This document shows positions 4,125-35,780 of a stretch of 36,803 nt of DNA, in pieces (position 1 is the stretch's first letter; the number at the start of each line of letters is the position of its first letter). Location of the stretch: contig JAIQFW010000013.1 in the NCBI GenBank assembly GCA_020073105.1, positions 1-36,803 on the forward strand, in the 5' to 3' direction. The notes below the pieces were generated by a model. It searched no databases. It was given only the letters and a program-made list of their open reading frames with translations, and was not told the origin of the DNA. The position numbers and the translations under genes are program-made. The stretch is from Terriglobia bacterium (GTDB lineage Bacteria; Acidobacteriota; Terriglobia; Terriglobales; Acidobacteriaceae).

Positions 4125-4373
4125 ATGGACATTTTACTGGCGCGGCAGATCGCTTCCTTTGTGGGCGCGTTACTCATTCTGATTGCCTACGTTGGGCACC
4201 AGTTGAGGTGGATGGATGCCCGCAAGGCCGCATACAACGTTTTAAACGCCATCGGCTCACTGATTCTGGCGTACATTGCGTTTCATCCCTTCCAGGTCGG
4301 CTTTGTCATGTTGGAGGTGGCCTGGGTGCTGATCAGTCTGTACGCACTGTTGAGACCACGGATCAATTTGTGA
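4125..4373 (+). CDS. Small membrane protein, CBU_0592-like
   Basis: An 82-residue protein with three predicted membrane segments (around LLILIAYVGHQL, AIGSLILAYIAF and FVMLEVAWVLISLYAL). The pattern, including the charged RWMDARKAAYNVLNAIGS stretch between the first two helices, resembles the CBU_0592 family of uncharacterised bacterial membrane proteins. The ATG is 6 bases after the nrnA stop, so it is probably the last gene of that operon. Its TGA stop (4371-4373) is the first three bases of a heptamer repeat array, so the extreme C-terminus may have been set by that array. Function unknown. Confidence 0.75.
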   Translation: MDILLARQIASFVGALLILIAYVGHQLRWMDARKAAYNVLNAIGSLILAYIAFHPFQVGFVMLEVAWVLISLYALLRPRINL

Positions 4374-4448
4374 TTCTTGATTTCTGATTGTTGATTGAAT
4401 GGCCGTCGGATTCGATCTGCAATCAAAAATCATCAATCAACCATCAAA
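4371..4448. repeat. Inverted pair of heptamer arrays (locus A), TGATTNN x4 and AATCANN x4
   Basis: Positions 4371-4398 read as four exact 7-base units: TGATTCT, TGATTTC, TGATTGT, TGATTGA. After 22 bases, positions 4421-4448 read AATCAAA, AATCATC, AATCAAC, CATCAAA, which is the same unit family in reverse complement. The two arms could pair into an imperfect hairpin. The left arm contains the stop codon of the 82-residue membrane protein; the right arm lies inside the first codons of the next reading frame. Confidence 0.9.
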
Positions 4449-6087
4449 ATTCGGAAGAGTGGCCACAGCGCCCGCCTCCCGTCTGCGCACCGACTGGCTT
4501 CTGCTCGCCGGCTTCTGTGGTTTTTTGTTCTTCTTTGGTCTTTCATCCTTTGGCTTGGTCGGCGCCGACGAGCCTCGCTACGCTCAGGTAGCTCGCGAAA
4601 TGCTCGCCCGCCACGATTGGATTACTCCTACCTTGGGCGGCAAGCCCTGGCTGGAAAAGCCCCCGCTGTACTACTGGCAAGCGATGCTCTCCTACAGCAT
4701 CTTCGGCGTGAGCGATTGGGCGTCACGGTTGCCCTCGGCCGTGGACGCCGCCTTGATGGTGCTCGCTGTGTACTTCTTTCTGCGCCGCTTTCGGCCTGGA
4801 TCACACCTCGACGGTGCTTTGATGACAGCTTCTGCCGCGGGCGTGATCGGGTTTGCACGCGCCGCGTCGACCGACATGCCATTAGCAGCGACGTTCACCA
4901 TTGCACTTCTGGCGTGGTACGCCTGGTATGAGAGCCAGGCGAAGTTGTGGCTGGCCATCGCCTATGTCTTTCTGGGCTTGGGTACCCTGGCTAAAGGACC
5001 GGTTGCGCCATTTCTGGCCGCCATGATCGTCGTGATCTTCGCCACCGCCAAGGGCGAGTACCGGTTGCTTTGGCGAAGCCTGTGGATTCCAGGGATCCTC
5101 CTTGCCTGCGTCATCGTTGCGCCCTGGTTCGTCGCGGTACAGCTCAGAAATCCGGAGTTCTTCCACACCTTCATCCTGCAACACAACGTGGAGCGCTTCA
5201 GCACCAACCTGTATCACCACCGGCAGCCGTTCTGGTTCTACATTCCGGTGGCTCTTCTGGGACTGGTCCCCTGGACGTTGTTTGCAGGCGCAGCAGTTGT
5301 GGAGGCCGTTCGCACCTGGTGGGGGGACCGCCGGGAGATGTTTCGGTCTGAAAATGCGTTGGGTGCCTTTCTGACTGTTTGGTTCATCGTTCCGATCTTG
5401 TTCTTCTCCCTTTCGCAATCCAAGCTGCCGGGCTACATCTTGCCGGCCCTGCCTGCGGGTACGCTGCTCTTGGCGGAGTACGTGCGACGGCATACGACGG
5501 ACCACGATCCGCCAGGTGCCACCTTAGCCATTCTGCACGCGTTGGTCGCGGCTGTGCCGGTCGTTCCCGCATTGATGATCCAATACATTGTGTTACAGCA
5601 CCGGCTGCCGTGGGGGAAGGCGGCTGCCATTTCCTGCGTGTTTGGTGCTGTGCTGGCAATCGGGATTGCGGTGACGTTACGGATGCAACCCGGGCTGGGC
5701 ATTCTGCGCTTTGTGACTCTTGTTCCTGTCGTGCTTGCGGTGGCTGCCGTGCTTCGCCTGGGCGCTCCAGCGCTGGACAGCACCCTGTCGACACGGCCAC
5801 TGGCCGAGGACATCGCTCGCCTGGACACAAGACGCCTCCCCATAGCTGTGTTCCGGGTTCGCCGCGAAACGGAATTTGGTCTTGCCTTCTATCGCAACCA
5901 GGCGATTGAACGATATGAGCGGGACCCGGCGCCGGCTGGCGAGCACTTGGTCGTGGCTGCTGGGGGATCCCAAACCGAACTGGCCAAGCTGGTCGTGGGC
6001 CGGCGCGTCTCCTACCTGGGAAGCTTCGCGCCGCAGGGTCTCGACTACTATTGGGTGGCCGCTCCCGGGATGAGCCACGAGCATTGA
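4399..6087 (+). CDS. GT39/ArnT-like membrane glycosyltransferase
   Basis: Enzymes of this fold move a sugar from a polyprenyl-phosphate carrier to lipid A, protein or other envelope acceptors on the outer face of the inner membrane. The protein has about a dozen hydrophobic segments. The first periplasmic loop carries GADEPRYAQVAREML, whose acidic DE pair is the expected catalytic site, followed by GGKPWLEKPPLYYW, typical of the ArnT/PMT superfamily. Substrate cannot be told from sequence. The start is uncertain: ATG 4399 has no clear ribosome site and its first 20 codons are partly heptamer repeat, while GTG at 4459 would give 542 residues starting just before the first helix. The next gene, on the other strand, ends one base away. 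Confidence 0.88.
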   Translation: MAVGFDLQSKIINQPSKFGRVATAPASRLRTDWLLLAGFCGFLFFFGLSSFGLVGADEPRYAQVAREMLARHDWITPTLGGKPWLEKPPLYYWQAMLSYSIFGVSDWASRLPSAVDAALMVLAVYFFLRRFRPGSHLDGALMTASAAGVIGFARAASTDMPLAATFTIALLAWYAWYESQAKLWLAIAYVFLGLGTLAKGPVAPFLAAMIVVIFATAKGEYRLLWRSLWIPGILLACVIVAPWFVAVQLRNPEFFHTFILQHNVERFSTNLYHHRQPFWFYIPVALLGLVPWTLFAGAAVVEAVRTWWGDRREMFRSENALGAFLTVWFIVPILFFSLSQSKLPGYILPALPAGTLLLAEYVRRHTTDHDPPGATLAILHALVAAVPVVPALMIQYIVLQHRLPWGKAAAISCVFGAVLAIGIAVTLRMQPGLGILRFVTLVPVVLAVAAVLRLGAPALDSTLSTRPLAEDIARLDTRRLPIAVFRVRRETEFGLAFYRNQAIERYERDPAPAGEHLVVAAGGSQTELAKLVVGRRVSYLGSFAPQGLDYYWVAAPGMSHEH

Positions 6088-7062: not shown

Positions 7063-7150
7063 GTAAATCGAACATGACATGGCCGTTGACATTTTCGTCG
7101 TGTAGGTTTCCGAAGGCACTTCTTCAAGGGGCGTGACGTGGGGCTGTTTG

Positions 7151-7178
7151 GCCAAATGCCAAGTGCCAGGTGCCAAGT
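7151..7178 (+). repeat. Heptamer array (locus B), GCCARRT x4
   Basis: Four exact 7-base units: GCCAAAT, GCCAAGT, GCCAGGT, GCCAAGT. It lies in the divergent intergenic region between the MarR-GNAT gene and the next acetyltransferase, upstream of the start chosen for the latter. Confidence 0.85.
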
Positions 7179-7311
7179 GCTCCTTGCTGGCCGCTTGGCT
7201 GTTGGCTTTGGATGTTCTTGCCGTTTGCCTCCGTACCGCCGCTGCCACTACACTCGCATTTCGCGGCGGCGAGCATGGCAAGGGCCCGCCGTTGTCCTCC
7301 AGGAGCCCCAG

Positions 7312-12197: not shown

Positions 12198-12941
12198 TTA
12201 CTTGAGTCCGGCTTTGAGCGCCAGGATTCTCTTCCTTGTCCCCGCTGGCAGCGTCTCGCACGCCGTCCGGAGCACCAGTCGTGGTGCTCGTCCCCGAATG
12301 CTCATCAGGTACGGTACCGTCCGCCTCGCATCGTACTTCGCGGTTTCCCGCAGCAACCAGCCCAGTCCCTTTTGCACCATGTCGTCTTCGTCTGAGAGAA
12401 GCAGATTCGACAAACGCTTGATCTCCGGGAAAAGCATCTTCTGCCGCGCACCCCGAATCAGCGCGACACACGCGGCCCGCCGGTGCCAACGGTTGGACGA
12501 CTTCGCCCAGCGAAAGACGTTTCTGGTTCGGGCAGGTTTCGCCACGACCATTGGCGAGATCAAGTAGTGCACCAGACCATCGTGATCCGCCCAACTGCTA
12601 ATCCGATCAAGCCAGGATTCGAACAGCCAGAACTCCACGTCGCCGAAGTTGTCCGTCAGATTCTCCAGCAGGAAGACCGCAAAGACTTTTTCTTCGAGGA
12701 TCTGGCCGGAAAAAAGCTCGTCCGCGACTTCAAGCAGGAAGGGAAGTCCTAGTTCTTTCAGGATCGTTCGCCGGAAGCGGACTGCTACCTTGCGCAGTTC
12801 TGCTGTGTACCACCCGCGCGATCTCACTTCCTCTTTGAAGAACCACTGGACTTCTTCCAAATGCGGGGCGGAGCCGCCGTCCTTCAGCACCCGCCGAATG
12901 TGGGCGGCGATGTAGGTGGGCGTGACTTTGCGTTTCGGCAT
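12198..12941 (-). CDS. AlkD-like DNA alkylation repair protein
   Basis: A 247-residue all-helical protein resembling the HEAT-like-repeat DNA glycosylase family AlkC/AlkD, which removes positively charged alkylated bases such as N3-methyladenine and N7-methylguanine without base flipping. Typical pieces are EEKVFAVFLLE in the middle, the WADHDGLVHYLISPM helix with its aromatic and acidic residues, NRWHRRAACVALI and DMVQKGLGWLLRETAKY. The ATG at 12941 is preceded, after three bases, by heptamer units (12945-12965), so its promoter region is repeat-derived. I did not map each catalytic residue onto the characterised enzymes, so activity is likely rather than shown. Confidence 0.85.
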   Translation of the reverse strand: MPKRKVTPTYIAAHIRRVLKDGGSAPHLEEVQWFFKEEVRSRGWYTAELRKVAVRFRRTILKELGLPFLLEVADELFSGQILEEKVFAVFLLENLTDNFGDVEFWLFESWLDRISSWADHDGLVHYLISPMVVAKPARTRNVFRWAKSSNRWHRRAACVALIRGARQKMLFPEIKRLSNLLLSDEDDMVQKGLGWLLRETAKYDARRTVPYLMSIRGRAPRLVLRTACETLPAGTRKRILALKAGLK

Positions 12942-12944
12942 TGG

Positions 12945-13108
12945 TAGTCAGTAGTTAGGAGCTAGGAATTTCCTGGGGTTGGCCTACTGCTGCCGTCGTC
13001 TTCCTAAAGCCTCACTCCCAGCTACTAGCCCCAAGCTGCTAGCCCCTAGCCCCTAGCTACTAGCCCCTAGCTACTAGCCCCTAGCTACTAGCCCCTAGCT
13101 ACTATCCC
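12945..13108. repeat. Inverted heptamer arrays (locus C), mainly CTAGCNN, 13 units in the long arm
   Basis: Positions 13018-13108 are exactly 13 units of seven bases; most are CTAGCCC or CTAGCTA in alternation, with variants CCAGCTA, CAAGCTG and CTATCCC. Positions 12945-12965 hold TAGTCAG, TAGTTAG, GAGCTAG, the same family in reverse orientation. About 50 bases lie between the arms. The long arm runs over the TAG stop of the POT transporter gene (13095-13097), and the short arm starts three bases before the AlkD-like start codon, so the element fills the whole intergenic gap. Confidence 0.92.
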
Positions 13109-19461: not shown

Positions 19462-19511
19462 CAAGAGAAGTGTTGGAGGACGGGAGTCCCGCCCGCCAAC
19501 TTGAGAAGTCT

Positions 19512-20120
19512 ATGTCAGGGAAGTGGAACAACTCGGTGACCAACCTCGGCCGGAGCCACCTGCCCCCTCCGATGCTTGCCGGGGTTCGTCCAGACGGTGA
19601 AGGGCACGTGCTGCACGCTCCGGTTCTGGTGTTGAACGCTTCCTACGAGCCGATCAACGTCTGCGCGGCTCGGCGGGCGATCGTGCTTGTCCTCAAGGGT
19701 GTCGCCATGACCGAAGAGGAGAACGGTCACTTCTTGCACGCTGCCCGCCTGGCAATGCGTTTGCCTTCTGTCATCCGGCTGCTGGAATACCGGCGGATTC
19801 CGCACCAGACGCGTGCCCTGTCACGCAAGAACATCTTGCTGCGTGACCGCAATACCTGCCAGTACTGCGGAGAAGTTCTGCCCTCGGGCGAGTTGACTCT
19901 GGACCACGTGGTCCCTCGTTCGCGCGGCGGGGCTTCCACCTGGGAGAACCTGGTGGCGTGCTGCCATCCCTGCAATCGGCAAAAGGGCAATCAATTTCCC
20001 ACCGAAGCCGGTATGCGATTGATGCGTGAGCCCCGTGCCTTCAATCTGCACACCAGCCGCCACATCATGCGCCTGATGGGTCGCTCCGACGACAAGTGGC
20101 GGAAGTATCTCTTCTACTAA
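19512..20120 (+). CDS. HNH-family endonuclease domain protein
   Basis: About 202 residues. An N-terminal part ([28 protein letters not shown]) is shared by a widespread bacterial HNH group often linked to housekeeping genes. The nuclease motif follows: CQYC at 116-119, [13 protein letters not shown] with the catalytic DH near 131-132, [16 protein letters not shown]. Paired cysteines should bind a structural zinc. The natural DNA target is unknown. I prefer ATG 19512 to the TTG at 19470 because conserved sequence begins well after both and the ATG removes a low-quality N-terminus. The TAA stop is directly followed by a heptamer array. Confidence 0.88.
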
Positions 20121-20337
20121 GCTTTCAGCACTCAGCATTCAGCATTCAGCCTGACACCATGTTTGTCATGCTGAGCGAGGATTGAGCTTCGCGCAGCGAA
20201 GCCCAACCGCAATCGAAGCATCCCTACTTGCCCCCGGACTTTACTGGGAGTAGGGATTCCTCGCGGCTGAAGCCGGCTCGCAATGACAGACTCCCGATGG
20301 GCTGACTGCTGAATGCTGACGGCTGAGAGCTTACTGC
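20121..20337. repeat. Composite inverted-repeat element with heptamer arms (locus D)
   Basis: Left arm 20121-20155: GCTTTCA, GCACTCA, GCATTCA, GCATTCA, GCCTGAC. Right arm 20303-20337: TGACTGC, TGAATGC, TGACGGC, TGAGAGC, TTACTGC, the reverse complement of the unit GCNNTCA. Inside, further pairs nest: TGTCAT (20164-20169) with ATGACA (20283-20288), and ATCCCTACT (20219-20227) with AGTAGGGAT (20249-20257). The whole 217-base intergenic region is one layered imperfect hairpin. It starts right after the HNH stop codon, and its last unit contains the stop of the facing gene. Confidence 0.88.
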
Positions 20338-21170
20338 GGCGGCTGCGGCTTGTCCTTCTGCTCCGTTCCCTTGGGCAGTTCCTTGCCTTCATACGTGATC
20401 TTCACATTTGCCCCGAATCTCCTGTAGTTCTCGTACTTGACGATCTCCCGGATGTGAATATCTCCGGTAGTGAAGTGAAGAATGTCATCCGCCCGGGTAA
20501 AGGTGGGGAACCAGTACTTGTCGTCGATTTGCTCCCGCCAGGTGGTGAATTTCGGGTAGAGGTGCTCGTCTTTCCCTTTCTTGCCAGGGTGAATGTCGGG
20601 GACCGTCTTTCCGTATGTCTTGACGATTTGAAAATCGTGATCGTCGACCCAGATCCGCCCCTGGAAATATCGCTTCTTCCCGACGATCTCCTTAGGGGCG
20701 ATGTCAAAAACGTAGCAATGCAGTTCATCTTCCTGCTGTTGCCCCGCGTACAGAACGCTGTACTCAGAGAGCTCGTCGCTGGTCAGCACGAACGGCAGGC
20801 GGTGACGGATGTCTTCAAAGTCCCCCGAATCCATCGAAAGGTTGGCGTTTTCCAAGGTGGATTGTGGAGCAAAGACGACGTTTTCCAGCCGCTTTCCCTG
20901 GTCGTCGAACACCACGTCAAAGACCTGCTGGTATTCGCCATTGACCGTGTTGCCGTCCAGCACCTGGACCTTCACCGACTGGCGATACGTATATTGGTCT
21001 CGCGCCAGCTTGAACTCTTTTTCTTTGGCGGCAAATCGCTGGATGATTTCGTCGGTGGTAATCCCCTTGGGCTGCGCCGGGTCAAGAGGTCCCTCATCGG
21101 CTACTGCCATGGGTAGGAGCAGTGCCGCGGCGAACGCGGCCAGCAAAACTGCAGTGCGGGTCTGTTTCAT
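20331..21170 (-). CDS. Secreted LolA-like (outer-membrane lipoprotein-sorting fold) protein
   Basis: A 279-residue exported protein with a clear signal peptide (MKQTRTAVLLAAFAAALLLPMAVADE). The mature part is beta-rich and resembles the LolA/LolB-like outer-membrane lipoprotein-sorting fold common in acidobacteria: FKLARDQYTYRQSVKVQVLD, then YFQGRIWVDDHDFQIVKTYGK and WFPTFTRADDIL. It may handle or bind a lipid or lipoprotein in the periplasm; that is inferred from fold resemblance only. The stop codon is in the last unit of the heptamer array. No operon partner is evident. Confidence 0.78.
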   Translation of the reverse strand: MKQTRTAVLLAAFAAALLLPMAVADEGPLDPAQPKGITTDEIIQRFAAKEKEFKLARDQYTYRQSVKVQVLDGNTVNGEYQQVFDVVFDDQGKRLENVVFAPQSTLENANLSMDSGDFEDIRHRLPFVLTSDELSEYSVLYAGQQQEDELHCYVFDIAPKEIVGKKRYFQGRIWVDDHDFQIVKTYGKTVPDIHPGKKGKDEHLYPKFTTWREQIDDKYWFPTFTRADDILHFTTGDIHIREIVKYENYRRFGANVKITYEGKELPKGTEQKDKPQPPQ

Positions 21171-30548: not shown

Positions 30549-30611
30549 CTGGGTGCCAAGTGCTGACTCCTGACTCCTAGCTACCAGCTCCTAGCTACTC
30601 GCTCCTACTTC
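30549..30611. repeat. Heptamer array (locus E), nine mixed units
   Basis: CTGGGTG, CCAAGTG, CTGACTC, CTGACTC, CTAGCTA, CCAGCTC, CTAGCTA, CTCGCTC, CTACTTC, nine units of seven bases. It mixes the CTGACTC and CTAGCTA unit families of other loci. The stop codon (TAG on the minus strand, 30605-30607) of the GGDEF gene is the first three bases of its last unit. Confidence 0.85.
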
Positions 30612-31657: not shown

Positions 31658-31875
31658 GCCAACCTCAAGTGTGGAGCGCAAGTCCTAAAATTATATTCGG
31701 CTCATGGAAGGGCGGGGAAGAAACGTTGGTAACCAGAACCCACCAAGACACGAGGGGAAAGCGCGTCTGGACGCGGACTTTGGCCGCTTTTCACGCAGTT
31801 ACCTGGTGCCCGGGGACTGGCCCGCCCTTTCCTTCTCATCTTAACTTCGGGGTGCCCCCGTCCTTGCCTAAAGTG

Positions 31876-31918
31876 CTGGCTGCTGACTCCTGACTGCTGA
31901 CTCCTGTTCCCCTATACT
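31876..31918 (+). promoter_or_regulatory. Heptamer array (locus H) overlapping the RodZ-like gene promoter
   Basis: Units CTGGCTG, CTGACTC, CTGACTG, CTGACTC, CTGTTCC (31876-31910). CTGACT at 31890-31895 matches four of six -35 positions and stands exactly 17 bases before TATACT (31913-31918), a five-of-six -10 box. The expected transcript start, near 31925, is about 17 bases before the GTG start. The repeat unit may thus supply the -35 element; this is inference from spacing. Confidence 0.5.
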
Positions 31919-32802: not shown

Positions 32803-32814
32803 TTCTGTCATCTT

Positions 32815-32828
32815 GAGCGGAGTGGAAC
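32815..32828 (+). repeat. TGTCATNNTGAGCG element, copy
   Basis: TGTCATCTTGAGCG, followed about 35 bases on by GTCGAAAGATCCCTAT. It resembles the core of locus D (20164-20177, TGTCATGCTGAGCG) and the inverse copies at 16086 and 16148. It directly precedes the AACCTGA array, and a further TGTCAT follows that array. Confidence 0.6.
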
Positions 32829-32873
32829 CGGCCGCTCGCGACCTGTTCCTCGTAGTCGAAAGATCCCTATCCC

Positions 32874-32929
32874 AACCTGAAACCTGAAACCTGAAACCTG
32901 AAACCTGAAACCTGAAACCTGAAACCTGA
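32874..32929. repeat. Heptamer array (locus G), AACCTGA x8
   Basis: Eight perfect tandem copies of AACCTGA, 56 bases, with no substitution, then a broken unit AACCCTT. It is the most regular array in the window, which suggests recent expansion, for example by replication slippage. It lies between two TGTCAT elements. Confidence 0.95.
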
Positions 32930-33014
32930 AACCCTTGTCATTCCGAAGGACTTCAACCCCGAGGAACCTGGGTTTATCCAGCCTGTGCACACCAACGGGC
33001 TGTGCATTCCCCGC

Positions 33015-34475: not shown

Positions 34476-35753
34476 ATGGCCACTACACCTACGCAACTTC
34501 GTTCTGACATCAAAAGTGTCGATTTCGCCGATCTGGGCAAGAAGCGCATCGACTGGGCGAACCAGTCGATGAAGGTCCTGCAGATCATCCGCAAAGAATT
34601 CATCAAGAACCAGCCGCTCAAGGGCATTCGCATTTCTGCCTGTCTGCACGTCACAGCTGAAACCGCAAATTTGGCCATTACCTTGCGGGACGGCGGGGCC
34701 GACGTGGTGCTGTGCGCTTCGAATCCGCTGTCCACGCAGGACGACGTATCCGCCAGCCTGGTACGCGATCACGGCATTTCCGTGTTCGCCATCAAGGGCG
34801 AGGACAACGACACCTACTACAGCCACATCCTCGCGGCCATCGATCACAAGCCGCACATCACCATGGATGACGGCGCCGACCTGGTCACGGTTCTGCACAC
34901 CAAGCGGCAGGACGCGCTCCCGGGCGTCATCGGCGGCACGGAAGAGACCACCACCGGCGTGATCCGGCTGCGCGCCATGGCCAAGGAAGGCGTTTTGCGC
35001 TTTCCCATCGTCGCGGTCAACGACGCCGACACCAAGCACCTGTTCGACAACCGCTACGGCACAGGGCAGTCGACGATCGACGGCATCATCCGGGCGACCA
35101 ATTTCCTGCTGGCAGGATCGAAGTTCGTGATCGCCGGCTACGGCTGGTGCGGACGCGGGCTAGCGAGCCGGGCACGGGGAAACGGGGCGGAGGTCATCAT
35201 TACGGAAATCGATCCCACGAAAGCACTGGAAGCGGTGATGGACGGCTTCCGCGTGATGTCGATGAGCGAAGCCGCCAAAATGGGCGACGTTTTCTGCACC
35301 GTGACCGGCAATAAAAACGTGCTGGCCAAGGATCACTTCGAACTCATGAAAGATGGCGCCATCATTTCGAACTCGGGCCACTTTAACGTCGAAATCGACA
35401 TCCCGGCGCTGGAGAAGATGTCCTCCTCGAAGCGCACCACGCGCAACTTCGTGGAAGAGTATTCGCTCAAAGACGGCCGCAAGATCAACCTGCTGGGCGA
35501 AGGCCGTCTGATCAACCTGGCTGCGGCTGAGGGCCATCCGCCGTCAGTGATGGACATGAGCTTCGCCGATCAGGCGCTGTCGGTCGAGTACATGGTCAAG
35601 AACGCCAAGACGCTGGAAAAGAGAGTTTACAAAGTTCCCGATGACCTGGATAAGCGGGTGGCGAAGTTGAAGCTCGAGTCTATGGGCATCAAGATCGACA
35701 AGCTGTCGCCGGAACAGGAAGAGTATCTGGCGGGATGGTCGGAAGGCACTTAG
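34476..35753 (+). CDS. ahcY: Adenosylhomocysteinase
   Basis: A 425-residue NAD-dependent enzyme that splits S-adenosylhomocysteine into adenosine and homocysteine and so relieves methyltransferase inhibition. Catalytic residues are in place: D132 (MDDGADLV), E156 (GGTEETTTG), K187 and D191 ([14 protein letters not shown]). The NAD-binding loop GYGWCGRG is at 221-228. The C-terminus ends LTPEQEEYL-like ([17 protein letters not shown]) and lacks the usual Lys/Tyr tail (DxxRY) that reaches the neighbouring subunit's NAD site, so it is of the shorter thermophile-like type. ATG 34476 has GGAG seven bases upstream. The TAG stop lies inside a heptamer array. Confidence 0.97.
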
Positions 35754-35780
35754 CACTCAGCATTCAGCAGTCAGCTAAGA
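35746..35780. repeat. Heptamer array (locus F), GCNNTCA x4-5
   Basis: GCACTTA, GCACTCA, GCATTCA, GCAGTCA, GCTAAGA. The ahcY stop codon (35751-35753) straddles the first and second units. The unit family is the same as that of the left arm of locus D, some 15 kb away. Confidence 0.85.

Follow-up and report, generated by a model that had tools for sequence, protein, structure and literature searches.

Heptamer-armed inverted repeats, S23p genes and a hairpin between convergent genes in an acidobacterial genome

Where two converging genes of a Terriglobia bacterium (assembly GCA_020073105.1, contig JAIQFW010000013.1) meet, the gap between them is filled by a layered inverted repeat. What is this hairpin, and to what kind of element does it belong? 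It lies in the window, i.e. the whole stretch of 36,803 nucleotides that was analyzed. The initial annotation described it as a single layered element that starts after a stop codon and that could be either a small non-autonomous mobile element or a shared bidirectional terminator.

Anatomy of the hairpin and its two repeat families

The arms of the hairpin (Table 1) are 34 nt long each and are complementary at 30 of 34 positions, while Markov shuffling of these 701 nt, repeated 40 times, gave no pair better than 24/34. The inverted heptamer-armed hairpin, its TCAGCNN / NNGCTGA frame and the nested inverted pairs TGTCAT/ATGACA and ATCCCTACT/AGTAGGGAT were present as initially described. The element does not start after a stop codon, as had been annotated; instead, the arms take in both stops, with the TAA of the HNH gene (20118-20120) forming the first three bases of the left arm and the TTA of the facing gene (20331-20333) the last three bases of the right arm.

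Table 1. Features of the hairpin and its neighbors, with positions in the window.
Feature	Position	Strand	Basis
Left arm, TCAGCNN heptamer array read inward	20118..20151	+	complementarity 30/34
Right arm, NNGCTGA heptamer array, inverted copy of left arm	20300..20333	+	inverted-arm match
HNH endonuclease-family gene, left neighbor, 3' end in left arm	19470..20120	+	PF14279 1.5e-16, PF01844 1.4e-14
Facing gene, LolA-like (weak), 3' end in right arm	20331..21170	-	PF17131 5e-4, below its cut-off
REP-like doublet (family A) in loop, 125 nt, TGTCATGCTGAGCG ... CGCAATGACA	20164..20288	+	core matches elsewhere in genome
First REP-like half, 64 nt; centre outward, starts GTAGGGAT, ends ATGACA	20164..20227	+	n/n' covariation
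Second REP-like half, shorter, own stem CCGGCTTCAGCCG	20249..20288	-	read from sequence and from copies

RNA from both strands, the folding of which the initial annotation had proposed, folds very stably, at -119.6 kcal/mol (z -8.37 relative to 200 shuffles) for one strand and at -119.2 kcal/mol (z -8.42) for the other strand. An Rfam scan of the window gave nothing at the gathering threshold. A shared terminator in the sense of intrinsic termination was not borne out, as a T-run is absent 3' of either arm and the two terminator-like matches (shuffle mean 0.6) both lie outside the element; one of them, a weak match, abuts the right arm at 20334, inside the facing gene and separate from the right-arm stem. 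The element does have terminal inverted repeats, as a MITE has, and it shares these ends with the S23p cassettes described below; an S23p remnant is absent from its loop. S23p is not known to be a transposase, and we know of no transposase that is similar to it.

Searches of the source genome (5.1 Mb, 308 contigs) separated the arms from the core. With 40 of 108 candidates scored, the whole element as a query gave a single full match, itself, besides 18 clear (L002-L019) and three weaker matches that covered only the core and many that covered only the arms. The ends of the core, TGTCATNCTGAGCG, occur at 156 sites with at most one mismatch, as compared to three sites for a reversed-pattern control. 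Two halves in inverted orientation make up the core; they belong to a REP-like family, here termed family A, in which a half, read from the centre outward, comprises GTAG and an imperfect palindrome in about 64 nt. Of 44 halves found, 38 could be scored, and in all 38 the variable positions n and n' are complementary, as G-C in 21, C-G in 10 and T-A in 7. In its GTAG tag, its covarying imperfect palindrome and its inverted doublets, the core resembles the REP/REPIN sequences associated with RAYT, as described in the accessible part of PMC3733652; it differs from them in its 64-nt halves, its variable inner stem and the lack of a Y1_Tnp gene with a flanking pair. None of the nine Y1_Tnp genes of the genome has a flanking family A pair within about 1.5 kb, and mobilization of the core by a RAYT was therefore rejected; single weak family A matches are found near four of these genes (L081, L082, L085 and L087).

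It might be argued that the whole 217 nt represent one transposable hairpin with nested arms, as the parts are concentric in the window. However, core and arms recur separately, the other family is seldom present in the inspected copies of either family, and the orthologous gap in a relative (G009) has arms around a short loop and no core. We consider such an element highly improbable; among the 40 of 108 candidates scored in the source genome, the whole element matched only itself, and a one-unit element was rejected on this basis. The single layered element thus resolves into two separate repeat families, and we read the REP-like doublet in the window loop as a later guest within a heptamer-armed pair. 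Elsewhere in the window (32806-32949), an A-family half, about nine AACCTGA copies and a second A-like end make up a REP-like element with an internal heptamer array.

The arm unit, GCTGANNGCTGANNGCTGA, occurs at 250 sites in the source genome, as compared to three sites for the reversed pattern. Among loci selected for holding either the arm or the core repeat, TCAGCNN arrays form 66 clusters, and in 58 of these an array reaches three exact units or more. Pairs were seen in 27 clusters, invariably with the TCAGC arm preceding the GCTGA arm (27/27; reverse order, 0), around loops of 11 to 385 nt that look unrelated to each other by eye. A search from 60 nt before to 25 nt after the array start placed a coding stop in the sense direction at -18 to +11 nt of that start for 22 of 89 arrays, as compared to 64 of 3000 random positions and to 3 of 89 arrays for the opposite direction. 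The free letters of the two arms, compared over the 27 pairs of the source genome, agree at 0.198 in the outer register (shuffled 0.180; reached by 1644 of 5000 shuffles) and at 0.148 in the inner register (shuffled 0.173; 3815 of 5000). As this agreement is no better than in shuffled arms, pairing of the free letters does not seem to be what is kept; in relative G009, by eye, the arms do agree in their free letters.

Two long loops of TCAGCNN pairs encode a four-helix-bundle protein, and the other 25 of the 27 loops, mostly short, hold no S23p remnant at E 0.05. ORF-less pairs are therefore not visibly deletion products. Deletion of an S23p ORF as their general source was thus left unsupported, with a stub at one locus (L319) and arms kept at another (L348), both described below.

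The 37-kb window is rich in period-7 arrays. A solo TCAGCNN array at 35742-35780 starts at the TAG stop of a 425-aa gene, which presumably encodes a protein resembling adenosylhomocysteinase. Inverted TTGATTN-type arrays with a short loop (4366-4449) resemble the arms of a divergent S23p gene, L196, and inverted CTAGCNN-type arrays lie at 12940-13104, the right one about 80 nt long. More arrays of other types are found at 7147-7188, 30551-30607 and 31871-31912.

Inverted repeat arrays flank most S23p genes surveyed

The source genome has eight genes matching PF05635 (23S_rRNA_IVP, S23p), all of which lie between inverted heptamer arrays. Two of them (L191 and L193) are flanked by TCAGCNN arms, the same type as the window arms; the other types are TAGCTAG, TTTCTAG, GTTCTCA, CGTCGTT, TTGTTGA and GGCTTCG. 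Seven of the eight entered the two-sided test below, while one at a contig end (L190) was scored separately, with 18 and 20 matches of 21.

Across genomes, the survey comprised 120 PF05635 genes, 108 of which had both flanks after 12 too near contig ends were dropped. It drew on the best gene from each of 29 other genomes of relatives (44 of 61 genomes, including the source genome, had a match) and on the best 80 of at least 585 named loci from GTDB species; Acidobacteria, Planctomycetes, Proteobacteria, Bacteroidetes, Nitrospirae, Cyanobacteria, Clostridia and an archaeal MAG are among the record titles of the latter. With at least 15 of 21 matches at period 7 or 8 on each side as a criterion, arrays flank 77 of the 108 genes on both sides (period 7 in 66, period 8 in 11), i.e. 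7/7 in the source genome, 21/30 in relatives and 49/71 among the named loci, and 31 of the 108 fail the test. Sham intervals in the same loci passed in 1, 0 and 0 of 120 cases, shuffled flanks in 0 of 108. Likewise, in a first pass over the named loci with a threshold of at least 16, period 7 was seen in 92 and period 8 in 18 of 153 flanks, as compared to 7 and 0 of 143 control stretches. The 77 two-sided pairs are inverted in 67 cases and direct in nine, with one tie. We thus consider the association between S23p and the arrays, like the gain and loss of cassettes described below, well supported.

Direct arrays were noted at L217, L242, L249, L250, L265, L270, L278, L297 and L305, and 8-nt units in a minority of cassettes (L221, L222, L241, L243, L260, L270, L288, L293, L299, L302, L303 and L341). 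LSU rRNA is absent from the 60 named cassette loci scanned of the 80. S23p proteins have sequence matches in the PDB to 2gsc (XCC0516) and 2rld.

A loose motif, (C/T)AG(T/G)NGT, is common to the heptamers when these are read inward, with AG in 47 and GT in 46 of 57; its information content is 4.64 bits, as compared to a mean of 3.09 and a maximum of 3.41 in 20 letter-shuffled sets. Over the same number of cassettes (57), similarity of the proteins and similarity of the heptamers are correlated (Mantel r 0.26, reached by 0 of 2000 permutations), as would be expected from recognition and equally from shared descent of whole cassettes.

Arrays of matching type are also found away from S23p genes. 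With overlapping units counted apart and the cassettes' own arms included, array sites in the source genome number 250 versus 3 in the control for GCTGANN, 75 versus 19 for AACGACN and 52 versus 6 for GTTNTCN, which are three of the seven arm types flanking resident S23p genes; for most of the listed sites of these types, no S23p gene was found on the contig or nearby. AGGGANN, an arm type of Nostoc plasmids, has 0 sites in the source genome, and the types searched thus match those of the resident genes. In a density survey of spaced 20-kb samples for period-7 arrays at 18 or more of 21, the 200 kb sampled from each of G017, G034 (both with no PF05635 match) and G032 (one match) contained no array, while G025, G001 and G028 had 10, 12 and 3 arrays per 200 kb (11, 7 and 8 PF05635 matches). 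Fitting less well, G013 had two arrays in 140 kb and G026 one in 60 kb, both with no PF05635 match, and the source genome (G000) one in 200 kb despite its eight PF05635 genes; its arrays with free letters seldom reach the 18-of-21 threshold.

Heptamer arrays, inverted heptamer pairs and S23p in rRNA IVS have each been described before. The 428-nt IVS in the 23S rRNA of Coxiella shares with the cassettes the gene family, a similar size and inverted repeats; according to the accessible part of PMC4990558, tandem GACAGAT heptamers of strain-variable copy number immediately precede its S23p ORF, RNase III excises it, and it is termed a selfish element and possible transposition remnant, and the Xanthomonas S23p is a homopentamer of four-helix bundles. 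It differs in lying inside rRNA and in having heptamers reported, in that part of the paper, upstream of the ORF only, whereas the cassettes described here lie near the ends of protein genes in many phyla. As gene, size and layout agree, we place the S23p cassettes with the IVS kind, outside rRNA.

Intergenic heptamer arrays are known as well from Xanthomonas (GGGAATC) and Nostoc (GGGGA(C/T)T), with 70 and 75 inverted heptamer pairs in two Xanthomonas genomes; these repeats were studied as quadruplex-forming sequences, and "four helix" occurs 0 times in the text available (PMC4692102). TAACTGA heptamers of Beggiatoaceae, Cyanobacteria and Bacteroidetes likewise form many short arrays, some at stop codons, for which horizontal spread was suspected and, in the portion available, no mechanism was given (PMC4679880). 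They differ in being mostly direct and before start codons in the genome studied, and "four helix" and "S23" occur 0 times in that text. For Flavobacterium, PMC5524665 lists a gene for a four helix bundle protein that is flanked by housekeeping genes, with heptamers unmentioned in the accessible part. Within the open PMC literature, the text available gave no link between heptamers and S23p beyond the Coxiella IVS heptamers.

Full, ORF-less and empty sites

At the HNH loci of relatives, a LolA-like gene faces the HNH gene within about 400 nt in 11 of 29 cases. TCAGC-type arms are present in two of these 11 gaps, that of G009, with a short loop and no core, and that of G006, with one A-like half. 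By eye, the gap of G014 has octamer-type arms, and others hold other period-7 arrays, are short or have seemingly ordinary terminators (L132, L140, L143); no S23p remnant was detected by tblastn in L120, L126 and L123. Beyond the HNH stop of G002 lie AGCAAGC-type arms that enclose an S23p gene encoded on the opposite strand, the frame of which has one in-frame stop. As the LolA-like gene is not adjacent there, orthology of this site is limited to its HNH side. Among relatives, the window site has diverged too far for a target-site duplication to be read.

A second site, between dprA and topA, was readable in 28 of 30 loci. An S23p gene is found there by tblastn in 12 of the 28, including the source genome, some copies being partial; eight of the 12 carriers have at least 15 matches at period 7 on both sides. 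By eye, the arm types differ (TCAGCNN, CTAGCNN, CCGCTCT and TTGGCTC). One further locus (L319) retains arms and only an N-terminal S23p stub (tblastn 1.7e-4), and the remaining 15 have no insert, carry different sequence or, in the case of L325, show by eye a possible C-terminal S23p remnant that has no tblastn match at E 0.1. The dprA-topA cassette is old and common in the family, with some copies partial or broken.

Cyanobacterial plasmids, of which 9 of 32 records with an S23p match were inspected, show such states at named sites. Seven of the nine cassettes have period-7 arrays at 15 or more on both sides; the exceptions are L341, with octamers at 14 and 17, and L337, with an upstream array only. 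In L344 the two arrays look direct. The cas10-cmr3 site is full in Picosynechococcus PCC 7003 (L341) and empty, with a 12-nt gap, in PCC 7002 (L345); the nrdB-nrdA site is full in Nostoc edaphicum (L342) and empty in Calothrix NIES-4105 (L349). At one site, after a TraM stop in Nostoc plasmids, all three states are seen: it is full in C052 and N. edaphicum (L343, L350), ORF-less in ATCC 53789 (L348), where a 260-nt gap holds similar, partly degenerate arms and no S23p, and empty, with gaps of 51-52 nt, in two C057 plasmids and UHCC 0926 (L346, L347, L351). S23p was not detected by tblastn in the ORF-less and empty plasmid loci. Two of the plasmid cassettes lie inside CRISPR-Cas operons, one between cas6 and cas4 in Anabaena sp. 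90 (L338, 1489-1857) and the other between cas10 and cmr3 in PCC 7003 (L341, 1195-1551).

One cassette has spread recently. The copies of C052 and N. edaphicum are 99.2% identical over 479 of 496 nt with one 7-nt gap, i.e. they changed in length by a whole heptamer, and their ORFs differ by one change in 363 nt, while the adjoining part of TraM has a dS of 1.01 and a dN of 0.066. High identity continues for about 100 nt within TraM; on the downstream side, the two flanks agree at 92-98%, and the flanks of C052 are 87-100%, mostly 93-98%, identical to those of an empty C057 plasmid. From the near-identical cassette, the dS of TraM and the flanks compared, we infer a recent move to the same spot, by insertion or recombination; the shared tract reaching into TraM means that recombination could have moved the cassette.

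The proposal of a small non-autonomous mobile element thus held in part: the arm unit recurs, the orthologous gap varies between genera, and one site exists in full, ORF-less and empty states in named plasmids. The two-family make-up and the link of the arms to S23p cassettes had been missed. Empty sites, which had been proposed as evidence, were found in plasmids; target duplications, proposed along with them, were not clear by eye at three plasmid junction sites.

Origin of the heptamer arms

We suggest that the window element probably is an ORF-less, heptamer-armed pair of the S23p-type cassette class with a REP-like doublet in its loop, its place in the class being judged solely from the type of its arms and the history of the site. 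Our confidence is slightly reduced by G002, where the S23p frame contains a stop and the other neighbor differs. A full cassette of this class comprises, in roughly 400-550 nt, an inward tandem array, one S23p/IVP gene (PF05635/TIGR02436) and the same array inverted, each array with a few, sometimes dozens of, heptamers or octamers; it often lies directly 3' of a stop codon, and each type has its own heptamer, loosely following the motif above. In hairpin DNA or RNA, S23p likely recognizes the array that matches its type, and it may promote copying of array-bounded segments into new sites via a nucleic-acid intermediate. ORF-less pairs, including that of the window, would then be moved or maintained in trans by a resident S23p of matching type, and the window pair itself may have moved at some time.

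Two other accounts of the arms were considered. The arms could be a host regulatory device, i.e. a bidirectional RNA stem at gene ends that is Rho-dependent or processed by RNase III and where S23p genes land or are tolerated. Such a stem would fit the enrichment of arrays at gene ends in the sense direction (22/89 versus 64/3000), the very stable fold, the apparent ordinary hairpin terminators in the same gap of three relatives and the free letters that match in G009 (the latter two by eye). However, there is no T-run, the free letters of the 27 pairs agree no better than in shuffled arms, and S23p genes of distant phyla between arrays, the matching of types and the cassette-sized presence and absence are left unexplained. 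We regard this account as improbable.

Quite unlikely, in our estimate, is that the arms arise by passive slippage or template switching at hairpins without S23p, with S23p being a selfish gene that targets such arrays. The shift in copy number by a whole unit between the about 99% identical plasmid copies is what slippage would give, arms at dprA-topA change type together between genera, and loops look mutually unrelated by eye. Yet arrays are scarce in sampled genomes with at most one S23p gene (none in a total of 600 kb from G017, G034 and G032, although G013, G026 and G000 fit less), the heptamer consensus is common to phyla beyond composition (4.64 bits versus at most 3.41 in 20 sets), and protein and heptamer similarity are correlated.

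The arrays may even be written rather than copied, an idea that we think unlikely to be right. Avd of diversity-generating retroelements, which has a reverse transcriptase as its partner, is a related four-helix bundle; its profile NF033474 gave matches to two of four S23p proteins (7e-7 and 6e-4), neither reaching the cut-off. An Avd-like S23p might guide a polymerase or reverse transcriptase that adds a type-specific repeat of 7 or 8 nt to each end of a segment bounded by hairpins. If true, this would account for arms around unrelated loops and for both arms switching heptamer together; it would be a transposase-free way of making mobile ends, one that would have left its traces in rRNA IVS and in the heptamer repeats known from cyanobacteria, Xanthomonas and other bacteria.

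On a bolder reading, the whole class would be a new kind of mobile element. Intergenic heptamer repeats in cyanobacteria, Xanthomonas, Beggiatoa and Acidobacteria have no agreed origin; S23p is annotated in many bacteria without a known function; and the S23p-bearing 23S IVS has long been suspected to be mobile. These three open items, the heptamer repeats, the S23p family and the 23S IVS, may be one, and the natural full, ORF-less and empty plasmid sites make the link between S23p and the heptamers directly testable.
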